Source of the DNA: Prevotella sp.
GTDB lineage: Bacteria > Bacteroidota > Bacteroidia > Bacteroidales > Bacteroidaceae
Assembly (NCBI GenBank): GCA_017475005.1
Contig: JAFVGI010000044.1
Span: 1-49,000 of the forward strand
Direction: 5' to 3'
DNA: 49,000 bases
This document shows positions 34,412-46,197 of the stretch, piece by piece. The position numbers and the translations under genes were made by a program. The notes beneath the pieces are model-generated. The model saw nothing but the letters and a program-made list of their open reading frames with translations, was not told the DNA's origin and made no database searches. Within the stretch, counting starts at the first letter, position 1. Every line of letters begins with the position of its first letter.

Positions 34412-37400
34412 ATGAAACGACTACTAACCCTCTTGCTCCTTGTTGTTGGATTCACGACTGGAGCTTGGGCACAAACAGCCATCCTCGTACGTAACGGTCA
34501 GCCAGTATCTGCTTTCTATGGAGCAGGCGCCTTGACGGGTGCCGTTAATGCTGCCGAAGCTTCTGGTGACGTCATCGTTCTCAGCAGTGGCACCTTCAGC
34601 AATCCTGGCGAAATCAAGAAGTCCGTCTCCATCTACGGAAATGGTCATGAAGGTTCTGGCCGTACTTATATCCAAGGCAAACTGTCCTTGCGGCCAAGCG
34701 AAGAAGGTTCCATTGATAACTTTCATTTGGAAGGACTCTATCTGGAGAACCATTTCAATATCCTCAACGACGGCAATCGAAGTCCGATTAGTAATTTGAC
34801 TGTGGTGAAATGCCACGTTACAGGCATGTTTCTCTACATGCCCAGCAACAATGTTACGCTGAGAAACTGTATAATTCAGGGTGATTTGAAGACTTATCCA
34901 GGCTCTTATACGGCCACGGATATGCTGATTGAGAACTGTTGGAAGGACGGCGGTAGCTTCAATATGTTTACTGCTGAGAGTACGATTACTGTCAGGAACA
35001 GCATCTTCAACTGCAGAAGCATCAGCGGTTTTGACAACTCCTCGGCCTTCTGCAAAGCGACTTTCGAGAACAGTATAATTGCCGGAGCAACATTGGCAGC
35101 AGGCAGTTCTGCCACAAACTGTGTCCTGCTTAACGTCAATACTTCTGCAAATGATGTGACAACTACCAACTGTTGGACGGCATCTTCTGTTTCCGAGGCC
35201 TTCACGAATGCAGAGTCTCTTGTTTATGCAGAAGGCGCCACTCCTGCGGTTAAGGCAGATTATGTGGGCACAGACAATACGCCTGTCGGCATTACTGGCG
35301 GCAATTATCCCTGGAGCATCGTGCCGTCCCAGCCGACAGTCAACTTCGAGACTACTCTTGTAAAGGATGCCGATGGCTTCTACAAGATTGGTTCCGTCGA
35401 GGATTGGAAGGAATTAAAACGAGTCGTGGAGAATTTCAATCCTCTCGCAAACGCAAAGATGACCACAGATATTGACCTTGGCGACACGCAGGTGATGATT
35501 GGCGACGGCTATTACCCCAATGCCAATTATCGTCGTCCGTTTATGGGTATCTTCGATGGACAAGGACATACGCTTACCATCCACTTAGTTACTGATTCCA
35601 TTGCAGCAAGCTATACCGATGCAGGTATCGCCGTACCAGGTTATCTCGGTTGTGCCCCCTTTGGCTACGTGTGGAACGGCACCATCCGCAATCTGCATAC
35701 GGCTGGTACGATAACCGCTGCGCATGAAGGAACAGCAGGTATCGTCGGTTGGACTAACGGCACAGTCCTCATAGAAAACTGCCATAGCTCAGTTGATATC
35801 ACTTACACCAATGGAGCGCGCGGAATGGCTGGCATTGCATACACCAACTACAACGACAACCACAATCTGATTATCCAAGACTGTATATATGACGGTACAC
35901 TTACTGCCGGTACCAATAAAACAGGTGCTACCGGATTTGTGGTGCATCGTGCTTACGGCAATATCTATATCAGTAATTCGCTCTTAGCAGCTACCTTCGA
36001 CAACGGGCTTGGGACAAGCGACTGCGCCACATTCGTTCGAAACAATCTTGGCAGCGGCTATATCAGCAACAGCCATTTCAAGATGGCACTCGGCACCATA
36101 CAGGGCAATCAATCCACAGCAGACGAGTTGGCCAACGGCCGTACGGCTTTTTATCTGCAAGCCGGTCGCGAAGAAATGTTCTGGGGACAGGAGATTGGCG
36201 TTGATCCATTGCCCGTTTTGACCAACGACGAGAGCAAGCGCGTCTATCGCTCTGCGGATGGCTATACCAACAATCCCGATTTGGCTATTGCTGACCAGAG
36301 TCTTGTGCCTCTCCTCTATACACGCAGTAGTGATAACGAACTTACTATTACAGGCTTTGATCCTGGCTTTGTTGCCCCAGCCGACTATCAGCTTGTCATC
36401 CCCGATGACATCGACGGTGCTCCTGTCGTTGCCATCGCCAACAGCGCCTTCCGTTCCAACGCGAACATCAGAAGTGTGACTGCCAATAGTGTGATAACAG
36501 TCGGAGAATATGCTTTCGAGAAAAATTCGTCGCTTGTCAGCATCACCATGAATGAAGTGTTGACGCTTCAGCGTGCAGCCTTTGACATGTGTACGTCACT
36601 GACTACTATCAATATGCCCAAGGTTGAGACCTTAGCCGACATAGTGTTTGGAACAGCAACTAGTCTTACAGAGGTGTCGTTGCCCAAGGCCAAGATGCTG
36701 GGCGTCGAGGCATTCGGCACTTGTGCTAATCTTAGCAGAGTGTCGCTGCCGGAGGCTACCACCCTAGGCAATGGTGTGTTCCTGAAAGGCTATGCCCTGA
36801 CCCATACTGGTGAGGACGGCATCTATATTCCTAACGTTACTACCATCGGTACTTATCTCTTCCGCAGTTGCACGGCGCTTACTACCGTGTCAATGCCAAA
36901 GGTGACTGCCATCGGAACCTATACCTTTGACGGCTGTACGGCACTTACTTCGGTTGACTTGCCTCTTATTACCGCCGTTCCGGAACGGGCTTTCCAGAAT
37001 TGCAGCTCATTGTCTGCCTTCGACCATCCTGCCGTAACGAGCATCGGACACTATGCCTTTGTGAACTGCTCTTCGCTTACGGCATTTAGCAGCAATACCG
37101 TGACGGCACTCGGCAATAATGTCTTCGAAGGATGCACAAAGTTGAAATCAGCCTCCTTCCCCAATGTCACTTCTATGGGAACAGGTGTGTTCCATCAGTG
37201 TGCTGCTTTAGACTTCGACCAAGTTACCTTGTCTAAGATGACAAGTTTGCCCAACTACACATTCCAGTCTTGTACGGGCATAACCAGTGTGACGCTTCCG
37301 AACGACCGTATGCCTTTGGTTACAAGTATCGGTGCCTATGCTTTCCGCTATGATACAGGTATAGCCTCGGTGACCATCAATACGGCTATGACGCTTGGCG

Positions 37401-40255
37401 GTTATGCCTTCAGCGAATGTTCCAACAACGAATCGGTCAGTGCTCCGCTAGTAACCGCGATTCCCGAATATGCGTTTAATAAGAACACAAAGCTCAATAC
37501 ACTGAATCTGCCTGAAGTGCTGACCATTGGCAGGAATGCATTCGATTATTGTACTTCACTCCCGACGTTGTCACTTCCCAAAGTCCAGAGCATCGGCGAC
37601 TATGCCTTTGGAACTAATTCCAATCTTACGAAGGTGTCGCTACCATTGTGTACCACTCTCGGCACTGAGGTGTTTGGTACATGTGCAAGCCTCACGAAAG
37701 CCTATATGCCGGAAGTGACCACGATGGGCATTCGTATGTTCTACAAGAACACCAGTTTGCAGACGTTGGGCGAGGATGCCATTTATCTGCCAAAGATGAC
37801 TACCATTCCTGAAGGCACTTTCCGCGAATGTACAAACATGCTTACGGCTCCGTTACAAAGCGGCATCACCAGCATAGGGAACAATGCGTTCTACCAGAAT
37901 ACTAATCTGCAAAATGTGACAATTCCAACTACAGTTAAAACTATTGGCAACTCTGCCTTCCGCTATTGCACGAGTTTGAACAACGTCGTGCTGCCATATT
38001 CGCTGACCAGTATTCAGGACTGGGCGTTTGCCAACTGCACCGGCCTGGAGAACCTGACTATCGAAGAGGGCATACCCAATATCAATCGTGATGTGTTCCA
38101 ATATAGTGGTATGAAGAATGTGGTGTTGCCATCCACATTGGGAGCTATCGGCATCAATCTGTTCTATCAATGCAACCAGCTCGAAACGTTAGACGTCTCG
38201 AAATGTGTGAATGTCTGGGAACTCTACAACTACACTTCGTTGCGTGGCAGTAACACCATTTTCTACGGTGTGCCAACAACCACCAAGATAATCCTGCCGC
38301 CATACGCTCAGGCTACACTTGGAGCGAACGACGAGATAGCAACTCTTGCATTCGACCTTACTGCCGACACCGACGGCTACTACCTTATCAACAATGCCGC
38401 CGATTGGGACAAATTTGTGGCTTATTCGCGTGCCAACCCGACAGTCAACGGACGCATTACCGCCGACATCGACCTTACAGGCCATGCAGGAAAGTTTGGT
38501 GTGGGTTCCAACGAAAGCAACTATATCACCTATCAAGGCACCATTGACGGACAAGGTCATACATTGACGATACAATATCGTACAGCACAAGATGTTGAAG
38601 GCGGACTGTTCGCATACGTGGAAAATGCCACCATTCAGAATTTGAAAGTCAGCGGAAACATCATTGCCAACCATCGTCTTGTTGGCGGTTTCGTAGGCTT
38701 CGTGAAACCTGCCACTACTTTAACAATGCAGGATTGTGAGTCAAGTGTAAACCTTACTGTTACTCCATCCACAACCAATATGCACATTGCCGGTTTCGTT
38801 GGACAAGGCAAGACGTCCACCATCACACTGACTGACTGCCTCTACAACGGAACGATAACAGGTGTTACCAGTTTCCGTTACACAGCCCCATTCCTCGGAT
38901 GGAAGGAAAATTCAGGAACAATTACCTATAATTATTGTCTGAATAACGGTAATTTTGTAAATACTGATAAAAGTTATTCCTATGCTCTTGGTGTTACACA
39001 AAACAACGGACAGAGCACGGCGAATAACTGCTATTTCAAGAAAGGTAATGTCACCAACAATGAAAATCTTGCGAAGGAGGTAACCGTCGAGGAACTTGCC
39101 AGCGGCAAGATAACCTATCGCTTGCAAGACGGTCGCGAGCAGCAGCACTGGGGTCAGAAGATAGGTACAGACCCTGCGCCACGCCTTACCGATGAGGCTG
39201 GAACCCGCGTCTATCGTGGAGAAGTCTATACCAACGACCCTGTGGAAGAGAAAGAACTCAAGCGGGATGCTGACGGCTACTACCTCGTAGGCACGCCGGG
39301 CGAGTGGAGCCTTCTTGCAGAACTCGTGAACGATGAAGGCATGACGGACGTGAATGTCCGCATGACGGCTGACATCGACCTCGGCGATGACCAGACGATG
39401 ATAGGCTGCGGAACGACAGATCCTGACCAAAACGGTTCTACAAACATTAAGTACCAAGGCGTTTTCGACGGTCAGGGATATACGCTGAAAATCAATTATG
39501 TTGCTACCGAACACATTACGGCACCTTTCCGCTTCATTCAGGAAGCAACCATCAAGAACTTGCATGTCGTTGGAAGCATCACAACTCCTTATCGTAATGC
39601 TGGTGGTATTGTGGGTATCTGCTTCGGACAGCAAATGCATAGTTATATTGAAAACTGCGTCAGCTCCGTTCATATCTATTCGTCATATGTGAATACGGGA
39701 GACTTCTATGGAGGAGGTTGGCACGGCGGCATTGCTGCAAGGTTGCATTACTACGGACAATTACACATCACGGATTGTATCTTTGACGGCAGTATTAGTG
39801 GAGAGAGCAGAGGAGTTGTTTGGGGCGGCTTGTTGGGTATTCCTGACGGAACGGTTACTATTACCAATTGCTTGCAAGTCGCAAGCTTCGATTGCAGTGG
39901 TGTTATTAGTGGCGGAAACGGCTCCGGCACCTTCTCTACCGTATTTAACAACGGTTATGCCTCTAGGGTTAATGTTGGCAGCAACAACTATTACCTCAAC
40001 CAGTTAGGAAATGCCCAAGGCACACAAGCCACTGCTGAGACTTTGGCTGACGGCACTGTCACTGTTGCCCTGCAAGCCGGTCGCGAAGAGACCGTTTGGG
40101 TACAAGACCCTGTGACGAACCTACCGATGCTGAAGGTGTTTGTAAAGCCTTCTAATATTCGTGGTGACTTTAACGGCGACGGCAAGGTGGGTATGCCTGA
40201 CCTTATGTTCCTTCTGCAGAAAGTCCATAATGGAAAATTCCCTGATGAGAAGTGA
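34412..40255 (+). CDS. Giant secreted BspA-type leucine-rich-repeat / GLUG protein with dockerin-like C-terminus
   Basis: This 1947-residue protein has a signal peptide (residues 1-20, ending GAWA). Order of parts: a beta-helix-like region (about 30-300); a GLUG-like module (about 310-610) opening with DADGFYKIGSVEDWKEL; about 28 BspA-type LRR_5 repeats (about 640-1290; motif A..SC..L..V.LP..T.IG..AF); a second GLUG-like module (about 1312-1605) and a third (about 1614-1905), both opening with the same GYYL pattern. Each module closes with a related stretch such as LQAGREEMFWGQ. The end (1915-1947) is a single EF-hand, dockerin-like tag, GDFNGDGKVGMPDLMF then NGKFPDEK. BspA relatives are surface adhesins; here the role is inference. 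It is followed by the Ig-like lipoprotein gene after 54 bases. Confidence 0.88.
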   Translation: MKRLLTLLLLVVGFTTGAWAQTAILVRNGQPVSAFYGAGALTGAVNAAEASGDVIVLSSGTFSNPGEIKKSVSIYGNGHEGSGRTYIQGKLSLRPSEEGSIDNFHLEGLYLENHFNILNDGNRSPISNLTVVKCHVTGMFLYMPSNNVTLRNCIIQGDLKTYPGSYTATDMLIENCWKDGGSFNMFTAESTITVRNSIFNCRSISGFDNSSAFCKATFENSIIAGATLAAGSSATNCVLLNVNTSANDVTTTNCWTASSVSEAFTNAESLVYAEGATPAVKADYVGTDNTPVGITGGNYPWSIVPSQPTVNFETTLVKDADGFYKIGSVEDWKELKRVVENFNPLANAKMTTDIDLGDTQVMIGDGYYPNANYRRPFMGIFDGQGHTLTIHLVTDSIAASYTDAGIAVPGYLGCAPFGYVWNGTIRNLHTAGTITAAHEGTAGIVGWTNGTVLIENCHSSVDITYTNGARGMAGIAYTNYNDNHNLIIQDCIYDGTLTAGTNKTGATGFVVHRAYGNIYISNSLLAATFDNGLGTSDCATFVRNNLGSGYISNSHFKMALGTIQGNQSTADELANGRTAFYLQAGREEMFWGQEIGVDPLPVLTNDESKRVYRSADGYTNNPDLAIADQSLVPLLYTRSSDNELTITGFDPGFVAPADYQLVIPDDIDGAPVVAIANSAFRSNANIRSVTANSVITVGEYAFEKNSSLVSITMNEVLTLQRAAFDMCTSLTTINMPKVETLADIVFGTATSLTEVSLPKAKMLGVEAFGTCANLSRVSLPEATTLGNGVFLKGYALTHTGEDGIYIPNVTTIGTYLFRSCTALTTVSMPKVTAIGTYTFDGCTALTSVDLPLITAVPERAFQNCSSLSAFDHPAVTSIGHYAFVNCSSLTAFSSNTVTALGNNVFEGCTKLKSASFPNVTSMGTGVFHQCAALDFDQVTLSKMTSLPNYTFQSCTGITSVTLPNDRMPLVTSIGAYAFRYDTGIASVTINTAMTLGGYAFSECSNNESVSAPLVTAIPEYAFNKNTKLNTLNLPEVLTIGRNAFDYCTSLPTLSLPKVQSIGDYAFGTNSNLTKVSLPLCTTLGTEVFGTCASLTKAYMPEVTTMGIRMFYKNTSLQTLGEDAIYLPKMTTIPEGTFRECTNMLTAPLQSGITSIGNNAFYQNTNLQNVTIPTTVKTIGNSAFRYCTSLNNVVLPYSLTSIQDWAFANCTGLENLTIEEGIPNINRDVFQYSGMKNVVLPSTLGAIGINLFYQCNQLETLDVSKCVNVWELYNYTSLRGSNTIFYGVPTTTKIILPPYAQATLGANDEIATLAFDLTADTDGYYLINNAADWDKFVAYSRANPTVNGRITADIDLTGHAGKFGVGSNESNYITYQGTIDGQGHTLTIQYRTAQDVEGGLFAYVENATIQNLKVSGNIIANHRLVGGFVGFVKPATTLTMQDCESSVNLTVTPSTTNMHIAGFVGQGKTSTITLTDCLYNGTITGVTSFRYTAPFLGWKENSGTITYNYCLNNGNFVNTDKSYSYALGVTQNNGQSTANNCYFKKGNVTNNENLAKEVTVEELASGKITYRLQDGREQQHWGQKIGTDPAPRLTDEAGTRVYRGEVYTNDPVEEKELKRDADGYYLVGTPGEWSLLAELVNDEGMTDVNVRMTADIDLGDDQTMIGCGTTDPDQNGSTNIKYQGVFDGQGYTLKINYVATEHITAPFRFIQEATIKNLHVVGSITTPYRNAGGIVGICFGQQMHSYIENCVSSVHIYSSYVNTGDFYGGGWHGGIAARLHYYGQLHITDCIFDGSISGESRGVVWGGLLGIPDGTVTITNCLQVASFDCSGVISGGNGSGTFSTVFNNGYASRVNVGSNNYYLNQLGNAQGTQATAETLADGTVTVALQAGREETVWVQDPVTNLPMLKVFVKPSNIRGDFNGDGKVGMPDLMFLLQKVHNGKFPDEK

Positions 40256-40309
40256 TAAAATAACTCATTTTTAATAACCTAACACAAAATTAACAAAATA
40301 CCTTTAACT

Positions 40310-42490
40310 ATGAAAAAGAACTTATTTCTATTGGCTTCTTTGTTTCTGACAATGGCAACATTCGTAGCATGTAGCTCAGAAGATGACGCAGTAAACCCAT
40401 CGCCAACAGATCCTACGCAGACAGTCACGAAGGTAAGTATCATCGCCCCTATCGGCTATGCACAGAACCTGGGAGCATGGATGAATGCAGACGCTACCCA
40501 CAAGTACAAGAGACTCCTCGTTGAAGAAGGCCAGCACTATATCCTGGGCGTCATCTGCGAGCCAAGCACCGTGAAGAATCCTAACATCGACTGGAACTTC
40601 GTAAATAGTGCATTCGAAGAAGCAAACATCAGCGAACAGGGTATCGTGACCGGTGTTGCTGCTGACGAGAACAACACCAACCAGTGTCTCATCGTTGCCA
40701 CAACAGCAAACAACATTTCCGACACTATCGAGGTTTGTGTGATGAAGGAACTGTCTGTTGTCTATGAGCTAAAGAACAGCAATCCTGACGTTGTCATCAT
40801 GGACGGTGCTTCCGTACGTTCTACGGCTTACGTAAGTGCGATAAATGCCAGCGGAACCCTCAACAACAAGGACCTCATCACAGGCTTCTTCTCCGACAAG
40901 AACCGTGCTAACTTCAATGATGCTGCCACAATAACATTCATTTCAGGCACATCATTCGATATTCAGGGTAATGGTGTCGGTGTAAACATCCTGATGACAT
41001 ACTCCAAGGCATATTCTACCACAGCTGCCGGAACCGTTTACTTCGACAATGTGCGTGACTATAGCGTGCTGACATGTAAATCAAGAAGACAGGCCCTCAT
41101 GGTTGACTCTTCTTACGTAAACCTCAACGACCACAACCAGCACATGACTGCCGGCGAGACATTCAATCTCTCTGCAACACTCGAATCCATCAGTCCTCTA
41201 AAGCAGGTTCCTGTGAAGTATGCCAGCAGCAATCCGGCAGTGGCAACGGTTGATGCAAATGGTAAGGTGACAGCCGTCAGTCGCGGTTTGGCAACAATAA
41301 CAGCATATACCAACCACCTCGCAGAGTCACAGTACTGTGTAGTAAATGTTGACAATGCAGTGCCCGTTGCAGTAACACGTATCATTGACGTCAACGACCC
41401 GACTACTGCACACACCGTTTCTCGCGCCCTCATCGTGAAGGGTCAGACCAAGCAGCTCTTTGCCGACTCTCACAAGGACGAGATGACCTCTGCTTCTGGT
41501 ACAGAGTGGAAGAGTTCTGATGAATCAATACTGACGGTTGATGCTAATGGTAAAGTGACCGCTGTTGCTCCTGGTACAGCAATCGTCTATAACACTCCTT
41601 TCATGGAGGCTAACGGCGTGAAGGAATATGGCATCGCTGACTGCAGCTGCATCACCGTAATGCCTGACTATAAAGATGCAAAGGTTGGAGATATCTTCTA
41701 TGAGGATGGCTCATTCAGCACAACGCCTCTGTTGTCCGGAAAGACTGCTATCGGCATCATTGCATATCTCAACTGCGACGCCAACGGCACTCCTACAGCA
41801 GGTGCTACCGAACTGACTGAGAGCGGTGAGACAGGACAGTATGGTGCTATCGATGCAGCAACCAATTTCCACGGCCTCGTGATGGGTCTGAACAATGCAG
41901 CAACAGGTGTCAACTGGGGTAAGGATGCCACACAGGCAGGACTCCAGGGCATTACCATTGCCAATAGCGATGCTGCCAACCCAATAGCAGGTACTGCCAG
42001 AGCATCTGGCAATACGAGTGCCTATACCGCAGCCATCACTACCAATGCGCAGGATGTCGTTACTGGCGCACCGACCTTCGTACCTTCTGAGAGCTATCCT
42101 GCAAGCTATGCTGCATGGAACTATAATGTCAAGGTGCCAAGCTTCTGCTCAGGATGGTTTATGCCAACAGCTCCACAGTGGTACGCAATACTGACTAAGG
42201 GCTTGGGCGGCCTGACCACTATAGCTCCTACTTGGAACTCTTATTTTGATGCTGCAAACGATGCATTCAACAAGATAAATGCAAAGCTCAGCAACATCGG
42301 CGGCACTCAGCTCCCAGCAGTTTCTGAAAGCGCTCTTTTCTGGACCATCAACGAAAGCAGTACTACCGGCAAAATGGCGACAGTCCTCATCAAGGACGCT
42401 TCAGGCCTGAAGTTCTTCGAATACGACAAGACACAGACAGCCGGTCCTGGTGGAGCACAGACCATCGTCCGTCCATTCTTCGCATTCTGA
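40310..42490 (+). CDS. Lipoprotein with bacterial Ig-like (BIG_2) domains
   Basis: This 726-residue surface or periplasmic lipoprotein has a signal peptide with lipobox FVAC (cysteine at residue 21). Two clear BIG_2 domains end in near-identical strands: PAVATVDANGKVTAVSRGLATITAY (about 306-330) and ESILTVDANGKVTAVAPGTAIVY (about 405-427). The C-terminal 250 residues form a different domain with IAYLNCDANG, GWFMPTAPQWYAI and a final VRPFFAF. This resembles the Fibrobacter-major-paralogous / C-type-lectin-like ends of many Bacteroidales lipoproteins. No promoter consensus is visible in the 54-base gap before it, so it probably shares the upstream transcript. It ends at a strong terminator and carries no dockerin-like tag. 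Confidence 0.85.
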   Translation: MKKNLFLLASLFLTMATFVACSSEDDAVNPSPTDPTQTVTKVSIIAPIGYAQNLGAWMNADATHKYKRLLVEEGQHYILGVICEPSTVKNPNIDWNFVNSAFEEANISEQGIVTGVAADENNTNQCLIVATTANNISDTIEVCVMKELSVVYELKNSNPDVVIMDGASVRSTAYVSAINASGTLNNKDLITGFFSDKNRANFNDAATITFISGTSFDIQGNGVGVNILMTYSKAYSTTAAGTVYFDNVRDYSVLTCKSRRQALMVDSSYVNLNDHNQHMTAGETFNLSATLESISPLKQVPVKYASSNPAVATVDANGKVTAVSRGLATITAYTNHLAESQYCVVNVDNAVPVAVTRIIDVNDPTTAHTVSRALIVKGQTKQLFADSHKDEMTSASGTEWKSSDESILTVDANGKVTAVAPGTAIVYNTPFMEANGVKEYGIADCSCITVMPDYKDAKVGDIFYEDGSFSTTPLLSGKTAIGIIAYLNCDANGTPTAGATELTESGETGQYGAIDAATNFHGLVMGLNNAATGVNWGKDATQAGLQGITIANSDAANPIAGTARASGNTSAYTAAITTNAQDVVTGAPTFVPSESYPASYAAWNYNVKVPSFCSGWFMPTAPQWYAILTKGLGGLTTIAPTWNSYFDAANDAFNKINAKLSNIGGTQLPAVSESALFWTINESSTTGKMATVLIKDASGLKFFEYDKTQTAGPGGAQTIVRPFFAF

Positions 42491-42520
42491 TTTTCCCGTC
42501 GCAACATATTTGAATAAACA

Positions 42521-42556
42521 AGAGCAGGAACTGCGTAATGCAATTCCTGCTCTTTT
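42521..42556 (+). terminator. Terminator after the Ig-like lipoprotein gene
   Basis: A 14-base stem (AGAGCAGGAACTGC paired with GCAATTCCTGCTCT, one A/C mismatch) with a GTAAT loop is followed by a short T run. Confidence 0.85.
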
Positions 42557-42564
42557 ACTTTTCG

Positions 42565-42648
42565 CTAACCTTTAACCGTTAACCGATAACCGTTAGCCAA
42601 TCGCTCGGCTTATGTCTTTAACCGATAACCGATAACCGCTAACCGCTA
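42565..42648. repeat. TAACCG repeat array in the convergent gap
   Basis: Two blocks of 7-base units (taaccgt, taaccga, taaccgc) lie on either side of a short non-repeat stretch (agccaatcgctcggcttatg). This is the longest array of the family in the window. It stands between the convergent lipoprotein and polysaccharide lyase genes. Confidence 0.8.
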
Positions 42649-42650
42649 CA

Positions 42651-44480
42651 TCACTCCTCGTCCGGGAACTTGCCGTTGAGTATTTTTTGCAAAAGGAACA
42701 TGAGGTCAGGCATGCCAACCTCTTCGTCGCCGTTAAAGTCGCCGCGAATAGTATAATTTTCTTTTACCGCTGCTGCGATAGGAAAGCATAGTTGGCTCTC
42801 AATGCCGTTATTGTTGGTATAGGTAACACGATATACATAGCTTCTGTTTGTTGTTACGGTGATGTTTTGTGTTGTTTCTCCTGTATTCCACCGCCATTGT
42901 CCGCTATTCTCCTCGCTTTCAGGCAACTGTGGCATGAGGGTTAGTGTATGTCCTACAGGTGGGCATGTATTATTATTGACCTGGTATGTGTTTACGAGTC
43001 CTCCCATCTCATTGTGAAAAATAGTATTTCCACTGACAAGTCCTCGTTCTTTCTCCCTGTCAAGGCTGGGGATAAGATTGTCGTCGATAGTGCCGCTATA
43101 CACCATTTTTGGCGACAGTTCCGTCGGTCTTCTTTCTTCATGACATAGCTGTTCGTCACGAGTGTTCATCAGCACCGAGTAGCCCATGTGGTCATATCCG
43201 CCGCTGGTGCTGCCCTGTGCGCCTCCGTCTATCCCCATCTGCTCGTATGCCTTCTCTGCAAAAGGCATTTTTATGCCCTTTACACCCTCGTATATACCGA
43301 TGACTGTCCCCCAGTATGGTCGCATCTGTGCACCGAGCACTGGCACCGTCATAAGCCAGGCACGTCCATCGCTGTAGTAGTATCCGTTGGTTCCATACAT
43401 ATAATCAGTCCACGGCAGTCCCTCTATGCTCATTGCCTGGGCAGCCAAATACTCTATGCCCGATGCCAAACGGTGATTCATGTATGCAAAAAGATCATCG
43501 CCCTGATTCCATCCTATCTTTGCCATGTCAACAGCGAGTCCAAGAGACATCGCAGAATGACCGGCATCGCGTCCGCTTTCGTTCAGCTGACCGAGACGGC
43601 CGTAGGCACCCGTTTCCAATTCGCTCTCTACATCGGTAACCACAAGGTTTCCGAGAAATTCTGTCAGCCCGTCGTTATGTATGCATTTTCCTCCGTCAGC
43701 ATCACCATGTCCTGTAATGTCATGCAGTGTGGGTGGATTAACAAAGTTGCCCACTTGGTCGTACTTAAAGTATGACATGCCTTGATTATATATAAAAACA
43801 TCGTCGCAGAGCACACCAATACTTACCACGCAGATGGCATTGCACAGCCCCCAGTTGCTCCAGTAGTGTCCGGGAGCCTGCCACCATTTACCGCCGTTCT
43901 CCCATGTGCCGTTACGGCTGCGCAGGAAACTGAGACTGGTTGGATACCATACCGTTAGCATCCATTGGCGAAAGATACTGAAGTCTTCGCTGCTCCAGCC
44001 CTTATAGTCGCGCATAAGTTCTGCAGCTTGTGCAAAGGCATATCCATATAGTCCTGCTGCAAGGGCATAATTAGTGTCACCGCCTATGGCCTTTGTGGTC
44101 GTGGCCCATGCCATGAGAATGCGTACGGCAGCATCGGCACACTCCGTGTTGTCCTCAATCTTCCAGCGCAAGGCATTTTGGTAGGCCATTGCCGCGCCTC
44201 GTGCTGCATTCATATAGTTCTCACCGCTACCGCCACCTCGAATGATGGTCTCTACAGGATAAGTCTGTACCGAAGGCTGAGCATAGGCTGCCGACTTCAA
44301 TATCTCATAGGCCTGCTTAACTTTTGTGTTTCCCTTTGCGAGTTGTGCCTTTACGCGGTCGAAATCAGCCTGCGTATGAAGTCCCCCTGGGTGTATAAAA
44401 CCACGATTGAGCGCCTGTGCTGACATTATCGTGAATTGAACATCAAAGAGAATTGTTATGAAAATCATGAAATACTTCAT
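42651..44480 (-). CDS. Alginate-lyase-family polysaccharide lyase with dockerin-like C-terminus
   Basis: This 609-residue secreted protein starts at ATG 44480 with a signal peptide ending near MSAQA. The catalytic part resembles the alginate_lyase superfamily alpha/alpha fold (PF05426; PL5/PL38-like): GFIHPGGLHTQADFDRVKAQL, FAQAAELMRDYKGWSSEDFSIFRQWM, HYWSNWGLCNA and NESGRDAGHSAMSLGL. Substrates of the group are uronate polymers such as alginate or glucuronan; which one is not decidable here. A beta-rich segment near residues 490-565 precedes the tag GDFNGDEEVGMPDLMF then NGKFPDEE. The promoter element is TAACTTTG at 44502-44509. No SusC/D genes are near. uxaC at 4.8 kb could use released uronate, but this is inference. 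Confidence 0.82.
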   Translation of the reverse strand: MKYFMIFITILFDVQFTIMSAQALNRGFIHPGGLHTQADFDRVKAQLAKGNTKVKQAYEILKSAAYAQPSVQTYPVETIIRGGGSGENYMNAARGAAMAYQNALRWKIEDNTECADAAVRILMAWATTTKAIGGDTNYALAAGLYGYAFAQAAELMRDYKGWSSEDFSIFRQWMLTVWYPTSLSFLRSRNGTWENGGKWWQAPGHYWSNWGLCNAICVVSIGVLCDDVFIYNQGMSYFKYDQVGNFVNPPTLHDITGHGDADGGKCIHNDGLTEFLGNLVVTDVESELETGAYGRLGQLNESGRDAGHSAMSLGLAVDMAKIGWNQGDDLFAYMNHRLASGIEYLAAQAMSIEGLPWTDYMYGTNGYYYSDGRAWLMTVPVLGAQMRPYWGTVIGIYEGVKGIKMPFAEKAYEQMGIDGGAQGSTSGGYDHMGYSVLMNTRDEQLCHEERRPTELSPKMVYSGTIDDNLIPSLDREKERGLVSGNTIFHNEMGGLVNTYQVNNNTCPPVGHTLTLMPQLPESEENSGQWRWNTGETTQNITVTTNRSYVYRVTYTNNNGIESQLCFPIAAAVKENYTIRGDFNGDEEVGMPDLMFLLQKILNGKFPDEE

Positions 44481-44501
44481 ATCAGGGATGGTTTCTGCAT
44501 G

Positions 44502-44509
44502 CAAAGTTA
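44502..44509 (-). promoter_or_regulatory. -7 element for the polysaccharide lyase gene
   Basis: TAACTTTG on the minus strand, 21 bases before ATG 44480, matches TAnnTTTG. Confidence 0.6.
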
Positions 44510-44619
44510 AGCAAAATATTTGAAACTCCAAAAGAATTGGAGAAGAAAAATATATCTTACCTCCCTCTCTACTACGAAATTGCTGCAACGGGACGTGAAA
44601 TCCTATTGCGGCAAAAATA

Positions 44620-46197
44620 TTACTCCTCGTCCGGGAACTTGCCGTTGAGAATTTTGTTCACGATAAACATAGCATCAGGCATATTTACGACTCCATCACC
44701 ATTCACGTCACCACGGACGCCAGCGATGATACTTGCGTCTATTTCCTTTGTTGCGGCATCCGAGGGCACATAGCCGTCCTTTATTGCCGTTACCGATATT
44801 ATAAGCCTGCTTGGCTGCTTTACGTTGTTACCGTCAGTTAGGAATTCCAGACGGCATATATACTTCACTCCTTCCGTCTCACAACTGAAATTCAGACTTC
44901 CGTCAACCATGCTTATTACAGGCATAGCACACTTCTCAATGCCCGGCTCGCTCTCTATTGCAACGATTTTCCCGAATTCCCTCCATGTCGCGGCAGCCTT
45001 GTAGGCATCTATGGAAGCATTGGGCACATGCAACGTCGCATAGTTAATGTATGAGTCCTGGAAGGTGTTGCGACTTACTATCGGTACATTCGTCGCATAG
45101 CAATAGAAGTCCTTCAGTTCAGGGAAGTCGGAGAAAGCATAGTTGCCTATCGTCCTTACGGCACTTCCTATAGTGACAGATTTCAGACCTTCACATTTAT
45201 TGAAGGCATAATCGCCTATTGCCGTTACCTCTTCCCCAAGGATATATTCCGCTACCTGGCTACCGAAATAATCTTCCATAGAAACAGACATACCATCATC
45301 TGCTGTTAAGATGGAATTGCTGTTTATTGTCACCTTCGCAAGCTTCGTGCAGTTTTCGCAGGCATTGTATCCAATCAATGTCACACCGCTGGGGATGGTG
45401 ACCTCTGTCAGCCCTGTGCAGCCGGAGAAAGCCAAGCCGCCTATTGTTGTCACGCTGTTGGGAATGTCTATCGAAATCATGCCGGTACACTGCCTGAACG
45501 CACCGCCGCTAATGCATAGCGTTCCGTCCTGTAACGTAACAGCCGTGTCTTCCGGCATGGTTCCCTTATAGCAGTATGCTACATTGCCCACATATATTAA
45601 GCCGTCGGGCTGATTATCATACCATGGTGTGTCGGAAAAAGCGTCGCTGTCTATAAATGTAACGCTGCTGGGGATTTCTATTGTTGACAGGTTTGAGCAT
45701 TTGTAGAAAGCCATCTGGCCTATTGACGTCACGCCGTCTGGGATAGTTATTTCCGTGAGGCTGGTGCATTCAGAGAATGTATTGTTGCCTATCGACTTTA
45801 CACCTTCCGGGATATTTATGGAAGCCAATCCCGTGCAACCACAGAAAGCATAACTTCCTATTGACTTTACATTTTCGGGTATTGTTAAGGATGTCAGGCT
45901 TCTGCATCCGTTAAAGGCATAGTTTCCGATTGAGATAATGCTATTGGGTATTGATACCGATGTCAGCCCGCCGTAACCTGAAAAGGCACTACGTTCAATT
46001 GACGTCACATCATATGTTTCGTCATTATACACAACGGTTGCCGGTATTGTCACGCTGCCGCTATATCCGCCCGAAGTCACTGAAGCCTGTTTGGAAACGG
46101 TGTCAAAGTTGTAATAAATGCCATTAATCTTCACCTTGGCATTCGCCACCATTGCCAACAGCAATATAATAAAGGAAAGTAAGGTTTTCTGTCTCAT
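44620..46197 (-). CDS. Secreted BspA-type leucine-rich-repeat protein with dockerin-like C-terminus
   Basis: This 525-residue protein has a signal peptide (about residues 1-20, ending VANA). About a dozen LRR_5 repeats of roughly 23 residues follow (pattern SIGNYAF.GC..LTS..IP). A beta-rich region at about 420-490 precedes the tag GDVNGDGVVNMPDAMF then NGKFPDEE. The last 28 bases before its stop are identical to those of the lyase gene. It starts only 11 bases after the RelE-like toxin stop, and I see no TAnnTTTG in the sequence just upstream, so it may be transcribed with the toxin-antitoxin genes. Confidence 0.88.
   Translation of the reverse strand: MRQKTLLSFIILLLAMVANAKVKINGIYYNFDTVSKQASVTSGGYSGSVTIPATVVYNDETYDVTSIERSAFSGYGGLTSVSIPNSIISIGNYAFNGCRSLTSLTIPENVKSIGSYAFCGCTGLASINIPEGVKSIGNNTFSECTSLTEITIPDGVTSIGQMAFYKCSNLSTIEIPSSVTFIDSDAFSDTPWYDNQPDGLIYVGNVAYCYKGTMPEDTAVTLQDGTLCISGGAFRQCTGMISIDIPNSVTTIGGLAFSGCTGLTEVTIPSGVTLIGYNACENCTKLAKVTINSNSILTADDGMSVSMEDYFGSQVAEYILGEEVTAIGDYAFNKCEGLKSVTIGSAVRTIGNYAFSDFPELKDFYCYATNVPIVSRNTFQDSYINYATLHVPNASIDAYKAAATWREFGKIVAIESEPGIEKCAMPVISMVDGSLNFSCETEGVKYICRLEFLTDGNNVKQPSRLIISVTAIKDGYVPSDAATKEIDASIIAGVRGDVNGDGVVNMPDAMFIVNKILNGKFPDEE

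Follow-up and report, generated by a model that had tools for sequence, protein, structure and literature searches.

A clade-specific dockerin-like tag on secreted enzymes and BspA-type proteins of a Prevotella draft genome, with candidate cohesin partners

Three neighbouring secreted proteins encoded in a 49,000-nucleotide stretch of ruminant Prevotella DNA (hereafter the window) end in a common tag which, judged from its sequence, is a single type-I-like dockerin repeat whose end, GKFPDE, is specific to the clade. Dockerins are the plugs by which some gut bacteria fix enzymes onto a shared scaffold. We consider it probable (at roughly 0.6) that the tag belongs to a cohesin-dockerin system, specific to this clade, that attaches enzymes and BspA adhesins. 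The tag would be a dockerin peculiar to this clade, cut down in the window proteins to a single calcium-loop-plus-helix repeat, by which tagged secreted enzymes and BspA-type adhesins would plug, presumably in a calcium-dependent manner, into cohesin-like modules of partner proteins and so be held together, probably at the cell surface. Attachment of the dockerin type is supported because the tag is one dockerin repeat, is common to 18 proteins and coexists with cohesin-like proteins in the same genome; homology to dockerins, the reuse on 18 proteins, the interchange of one and two repeats on one enzyme and the cohesin-like proteins can all be read directly from the sequences, whereas we infer binding, calcium dependence and surface location.

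The tag in the window and across the draft genome

The draft genome, of which the window is contig 35, measures 2.36 Mb in 72 contigs and is 81% complete. The tagged genes and their tags are as follows.

34412..40255, + strand: 1947-aa secreted BspA-type leucine-rich-repeat protein with tag (open reading frame; Pfam LRR_5, E 7.6e-109; signal-peptide-like start)
40160..40252, + strand: one-repeat dockerin-type tag of the 1947-aa protein (tag-query and tag-profile searches)
42651..44480, - strand: 609-aa secreted alginate-lyase-family protein with tag (Pfam Alginate_lyase, E 1.1e-11; start chosen at 44480)
42654..42746, - strand: one-repeat dockerin-type tag of the lyase-family protein (tag-query and tag-profile searches)
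44620..46197, - strand: 525-aa secreted BspA-type protein with tag (Pfam LRR_5, E 1.4e-72)
44623..44715, - strand: one-repeat dockerin-type tag of the 525-aa protein (tag-query and tag-profile searches; Pfam)

The first-pass annotation had proposed a common C-terminal tag on these three proteins, and our searches bear this out, with 31 residues in each and a stop codon directly after each tag. Against a profile of 17 tags from the same genome, which includes the three window tags among its rows, the window tags scored 70.3-72 bits (E 1e-19 to 4e-19), and the first window tag used alone as a query retrieved the other two at 6.2e-14 and 1.8e-10, so that chance likeness is ruled out. The GLUG motifs that had been reported in the 1947-residue protein were not recovered, since Pfam gives BspA repeats and no GLUG motif at E<=1. 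The lyase gene probably starts at 44480 (609 aa, with a signal-peptide-like start) and not at 44588, the start of the longer open reading frame; the gene for the 525-aa protein lies some 140 bases upstream of the lyase gene on the same strand. Between the tagged genes (40310-42490, + strand) lies the gene of a 726-aa Big_2 protein that begins like a lipoprotein and has no tag.

Genome-wide counting of tagged proteins, which had been suggested as a check, was carried out with one tag as query and gave 32 places at E<=10 in the draft genome; after reading frames were considered, these yielded 18 proteins with a repeat ending in GKFP or, once, GKYP. Recent local duplication confined to three genes, the alternative that the first-pass annotation had raised, is rejected on the strength of these 18 carriers and of the codons, as many residues shared between the window tags are encoded differently (12/26, 12/21 and 9/22 shared residues in the three tag pairs). 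Nine of the 18 carriers, the three window proteins included, have a single repeat, and in the remaining nine the tag forms the second half of a two-repeat dockerin. Pfam assigns the carriers to GH53, GH28, GH43, an alginate-lyase-family protein, a C10 peptidase, two CotH proteins, a calycin-like protein and LRR/BspA proteins, while several have no Pfam match besides dockerin. A signal-peptide-like start, judged by a simple pattern and not by a predictor, is present in all but one (L042) of the 18, and none of them showed a lipobox. Our tag profile A1 consists of 17 of the 18 tags, L040 having been found later, and L033 (604 aa) and L043, which carry a related dockerin without GKFP in this genome, were left out of the 18.

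The tag ends no more than six residues from the C-terminus in 16 of the 18 carriers; the description 'exactly at the C-terminus' therefore holds for the three window proteins but not genome-wide (0-6 residues from the end in 16/18). In the other two, the calycin-like L034:4101-4745 and the CotH protein L044, it follows the signal peptide, and the L044-type position is also seen elsewhere (G060, L193). Among sister loci, the tag follows a signal peptide in L096 and is internal in L090. These positions bear on the possibility that the tag itself directs sorting or secretion from the C-terminus, much as the type IX sorting domain does. The terminal location of most tags would speak for such a signal, as would the longer homologs of the window lyase that end in a different, type IX-looking tail, although no profile confirmed that tail. 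We consider this role very unlikely, because two of the 18 proteins carry the tag after the signal peptide and because N-terminal or internal tags recur in sister loci; moreover, the genome has separate type IX sorting domains. The type IX (Por) domain (TIGR04183, PF18962) resembles the tag as a common C-terminal module of secreted Bacteroidota proteins but differs in its sequence, and the tag can be N-terminal; neither type IX profile matched any of the three window proteins at E<=1. The type IX-looking tails of L153, L154 (202 aa), L197 and L198 (cohesin-like proteins) and of L202 and L204 (lyase homologs) were not counted as sorting domains because those scanned did not match TIGR04183. Thus, of the two functions first suggested for the tag, attachment is supported by its dockerin-type sequence and sorting is not.

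Relationship to one- and two-repeat dockerins

Residues D3, N5, D7, M12, D14, M16, G25, K26 and P28 are invariant over 17 tags. The calcium loop followed by a helix and the pattern GD.NGDG..NM.DVM are shared with the type I dockerins of cellulosomes (PF00404; nearest, 2y3n chain B), and when the tag profile was compared with the PDB, solved dockerins ranked first, with 2y3n at 1.9e-10, or at 2e-8 for a profile of one-repeat tags only. MPD.MF, which the first-pass annotation took to exceed the usual dockerin pattern, is part of the repeat and similar to NMADVM of 2y3n, while the GKFPDE end does stand as a clade-specific extension. Pfam Dockerin_1 narrowly passes in the 525-aa protein (23.2 bits against a cut-off of 22.9) and is absent at E<=1 from the other two window proteins; two dockerin repeats were found in none of the three, each having one. 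The two-repeat relatives that were scanned pass Dockerin_1. For a sister genome's two-repeat form the fold prediction reached a pLDDT of 94.9, and the first 33 of 40 Foldseek rows for this model are dockerin or cohesin-dockerin entries, albeit with weak E-values (best 0.0038, none below 0.001); two-repeat relatives of the tag are thus predicted to share the dockerin fold with the type I modules. The one-repeat form, modelled from the single sequence of the 133 C-terminal residues of the 525-aa protein, gave an unusably poor model (pLDDT 49.7). Like type I dockerins, the tag occurs on secreted enzymes and is mostly C-terminal, and the dockerin-bearing enzymes of a cellulosome have their counterpart here; unlike them, it is reduced to one repeat in the window and in half of the carriers, has the conserved GKFPDE end, is found on BspA/LRR proteins as well as enzymes, and occurs in Bacteroidota.

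One and two repeats interchange on a GH53 enzyme that is 80% identical between this genome and G060, with one repeat here, two in G060 and 33 gap columns in the comparison. Two repeats are likewise present in the GH53 proteins of three further sister loci (L094, L099 and L108), so the difference is more simply explained if this lineage lost the first repeat. Residue 19 is K or R in 17/22 one-repeat tags and Y in 39/42 second repeats (Fisher 1.6e-8), in a post hoc comparison that counts orthologs repeatedly and for which three rows were moved by eye from the one-repeat to the two-repeat class; in this genome alone, K is present in 8/9 one-repeat and 2/9 two-repeat tags (p 0.015). On a post hoc reading, K or R at this position would suit a surface that has no first repeat left to pack against. 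A further set, A5, combines 20 of the 22 two-repeat stretches (two near-duplicates being left out) with the three window tags.

A half-length dockerin need not be a broken one. The group-2 dockerins of Ruminococcus flavefaciens are reported to be truncated derivatives of a two-repeat group with measured binding to surface cohesins (PMC5429695, PMC5301203), and the best reading of the one-repeat tags is that they are truncated dockerins that would work in a like manner. The likeness to the FD-1 group-2 dockerins (9gvb) is one of truncation and of working, with no kinship implied: 9gvb was not among the hits at E<=10 when the one-repeat tags served as sequence queries, and its structural match to the sister two-repeat model is weak (Foldseek rank 33, E 5.7). 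Occasional N-terminal or internal position is a further common trait; in R. flavefaciens, dockerins are reported to lie C-terminally in 156 proteins, internally in 32 and N-terminally in 19 (PMC2930009).

Candidate cohesin partners

The absence of a cohesin from the window was corroborated, as no window open reading frame matched the cohesin-like profile at E<=0.1. The Pfam cohesin family (PF00963) gave zero matches at E<=10 in this genome; it exceeded its cut-off in 15/60 relatives, and the sister proteins L152 and L153 pass it. Absence of Pfam cohesin and of an anchored cohesin from this genome, together with the single repeat in half of the carriers, would suit a stand-alone calcium-binding cap that stabilises the protein end, or tags that pair with one another in dockerin-like fashion, without any cohesin partner. 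We regard this as unlikely, given that MPD.MF and GKFP are conserved far beyond what calcium binding needs (M12, M16, G25, K26 and P28 being invariant in 17 tags), that the module sits on unrelated proteins, and that cohesin-like proteins do exist in the genome.

A search for a cohesin-like receptor, also suggested by the first-pass annotation, revealed three such proteins in the same genome when cohesin profiles were used. Profile A2, made of 18 cohesin-like domains of which two are from this genome, matched this genome four times at E<=0.1, namely at C45:39260-39652 and C45:39995-40405 (the two domains already in A2), at C72:41838-42242 (absent from the profile; 1.2e-29) and, weakly, at a contig edge (0.012). 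Because the presence of two own domains makes this test circular, it was repeated without them, and a profile of 16 foreign sequences recovered the three own cohesin-like proteins at 4.2e-7, 7.7e-13 and 1e-20 among 1154 open reading frames of stretches fetched from this genome, with the next open reading frame at 0.11 and reversed ones at 0.3 at best. Homology of the candidate partners is carried by a profile built from relatives that pass Pfam; Pfam cohesin itself found nothing in the C72 protein or in the 233-aa protein of C45. Against the PDB, A2 gave 35 rows at E<=1, of which the first 30 are scaffoldins or cohesins (best 5n5p, 6.6e-11). A few of these 30 are filed under an enzyme name, and we take them to be cohesin chains. 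Counting against this, single-sequence PDB searches with the C72 and G063 proteins returned dockerin or scaffoldin-tail chains only and no cohesin module.

All three own cohesin-like proteins end in dockerins: the 233-aa protein of C45 combines a cohesin-like domain with the tag, the 728-aa protein of C45 joins BspA, a cohesin-like domain and another dockerin, and the 228-aa protein of C72, encoded directly after a tagged gene, consists of a cohesin-like domain and a second dockerin class. Proteins of this layout could hand tagged proteins on to a second layer. Tagged genes of G063 and G060 are likewise followed by a C72-like gene (in G060 the tagged protein is a different one), and the second dockerin of the C72-like protein varies by species (NITDVS here, NVGDLVCVSNF in G063 and VTDIQEVIHIML in G060). 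Several cohesin-like domains in one protein were found in sister genomes only and not in this 81% complete genome. A 1163-aa protein of G063 has three, with MBG repeats and a two-repeat dockerin ending in NGEFPDE (Pfam cohesin 31.9 bits, cut-off 24.1), and a 456-aa protein of G061 has two with a dockerin between them (26.4 bits, same cut-off); on their predicted domain order, both are scaffold-like layouts.

Related cohesin-like proteins with differing second-class dockerins are present in three species (L037:5770-6456, L154:5524-6192 and L196:4643-5353), and the NITDVS class recurs in this genome on three other large proteins (L045, L046 and L048). The cohesin-like modules of L038:3915-4613 and L198:3174-3812 are similar but end in the tag here and in another tail in G062, as though their attachment ends had been exchanged.

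This genome, 81% complete, yielded no anchored cohesin, an observation that would suit a receptor outside the own cohesin set, either a cohesin made by a different rumen bacterium or a surface protein of some other kind; the same speculation has been reported for Ruminococcus albus 8 (PMC4035507). Such a receptor seems rather unlikely to us, as the same genome encodes cohesin-like proteins, one of which adjoins a tagged gene in three genomes, and as the incomplete assembly weakens the argument from absence. At E<=1e-10, A2, which contains sequences of the genus, detects cohesin-like domains in 75/150 genus genomes, most of them without the tag, so these domains may also serve other ends.

Distribution, export and significance

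A scan that demanded exact GKFP, and may leave out records of this genome, yielded 35 tag loci in five named Prevotellaceae assemblies (UBA7017, Sheep_1_mag_34, RUG14468, SRR12081297_bin.73 and SRR1267595_bin.81), whose genomes have 38, 20, 14, 17 and 6 matches, respectively, at E<=1e-10 with repeats counted singly. When at most 20 candidates per genome were scored across the genus, the tag was present at E<=1e-12 in 5/398 genomes, this one included; identical coordinates show the remaining genomes to be four among the five assemblies named above. The tag as a genus-wide feature was rejected on these figures.

All six tag-bearing genomes encode SprA and have type IX sorting domains. In this genome a small secreted protein bearing a type IX sorting domain (L036:5762-6208) adjoins a tagged gene, and judged by coordinates such a neighbour lies near a tag in G060, G061, G062 and G063 too. 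The combination of cohesin and type IX sorting domain was not confirmed by profile in the tag-bearing genomes, but it does exist in the order, because in a 1239-aa protein of the more distant G038 Pfam marks four cohesin stretches and a profile confirms a type IX sorting domain. This protein is one of two adjacent large proteins of G038 (L166:3474-14738) that have eight and five cohesin-like domains by A2 and both a type IX sorting domain, and that are candidate Bacteroidales scaffoldins; a Pfam scan of the whole of the other, 2467 aa long, gave no cohesin at E<=1. As to how tagged proteins might pass the outer membrane, Bacteroidota might own a cellulosome-like surface system in which cohesin proteins are type IX cargo, and dockerin-tagged proteins that have a signal peptide only bind them in the periplasm and cross the outer membrane with them; we think this improbable, but if true, the short tag would serve as a transferable pass for secretion in addition to attachment.

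Dockerins have been noted in rumen Prevotella bins, with their role left open (PMC7480376). One paper records cohesins in some Bacteroidetes (PMC6071333), and another reportedly found none, as in other Bacteroidetes (PMC5831590). In the open-access literature searched, we recognised no description of this tag or of a Prevotella cohesin-dockerin pair.

A small clade has one conserved dockerin class on both enzymes and adhesins; some of these dockerins are naturally of half length, and the candidate cohesins escape Pfam. These proteins would provide concrete pairs with which to test scaffolds in Bacteroidota, the sufficiency of half a dockerin and the exit of proteins that have no sorting domain.
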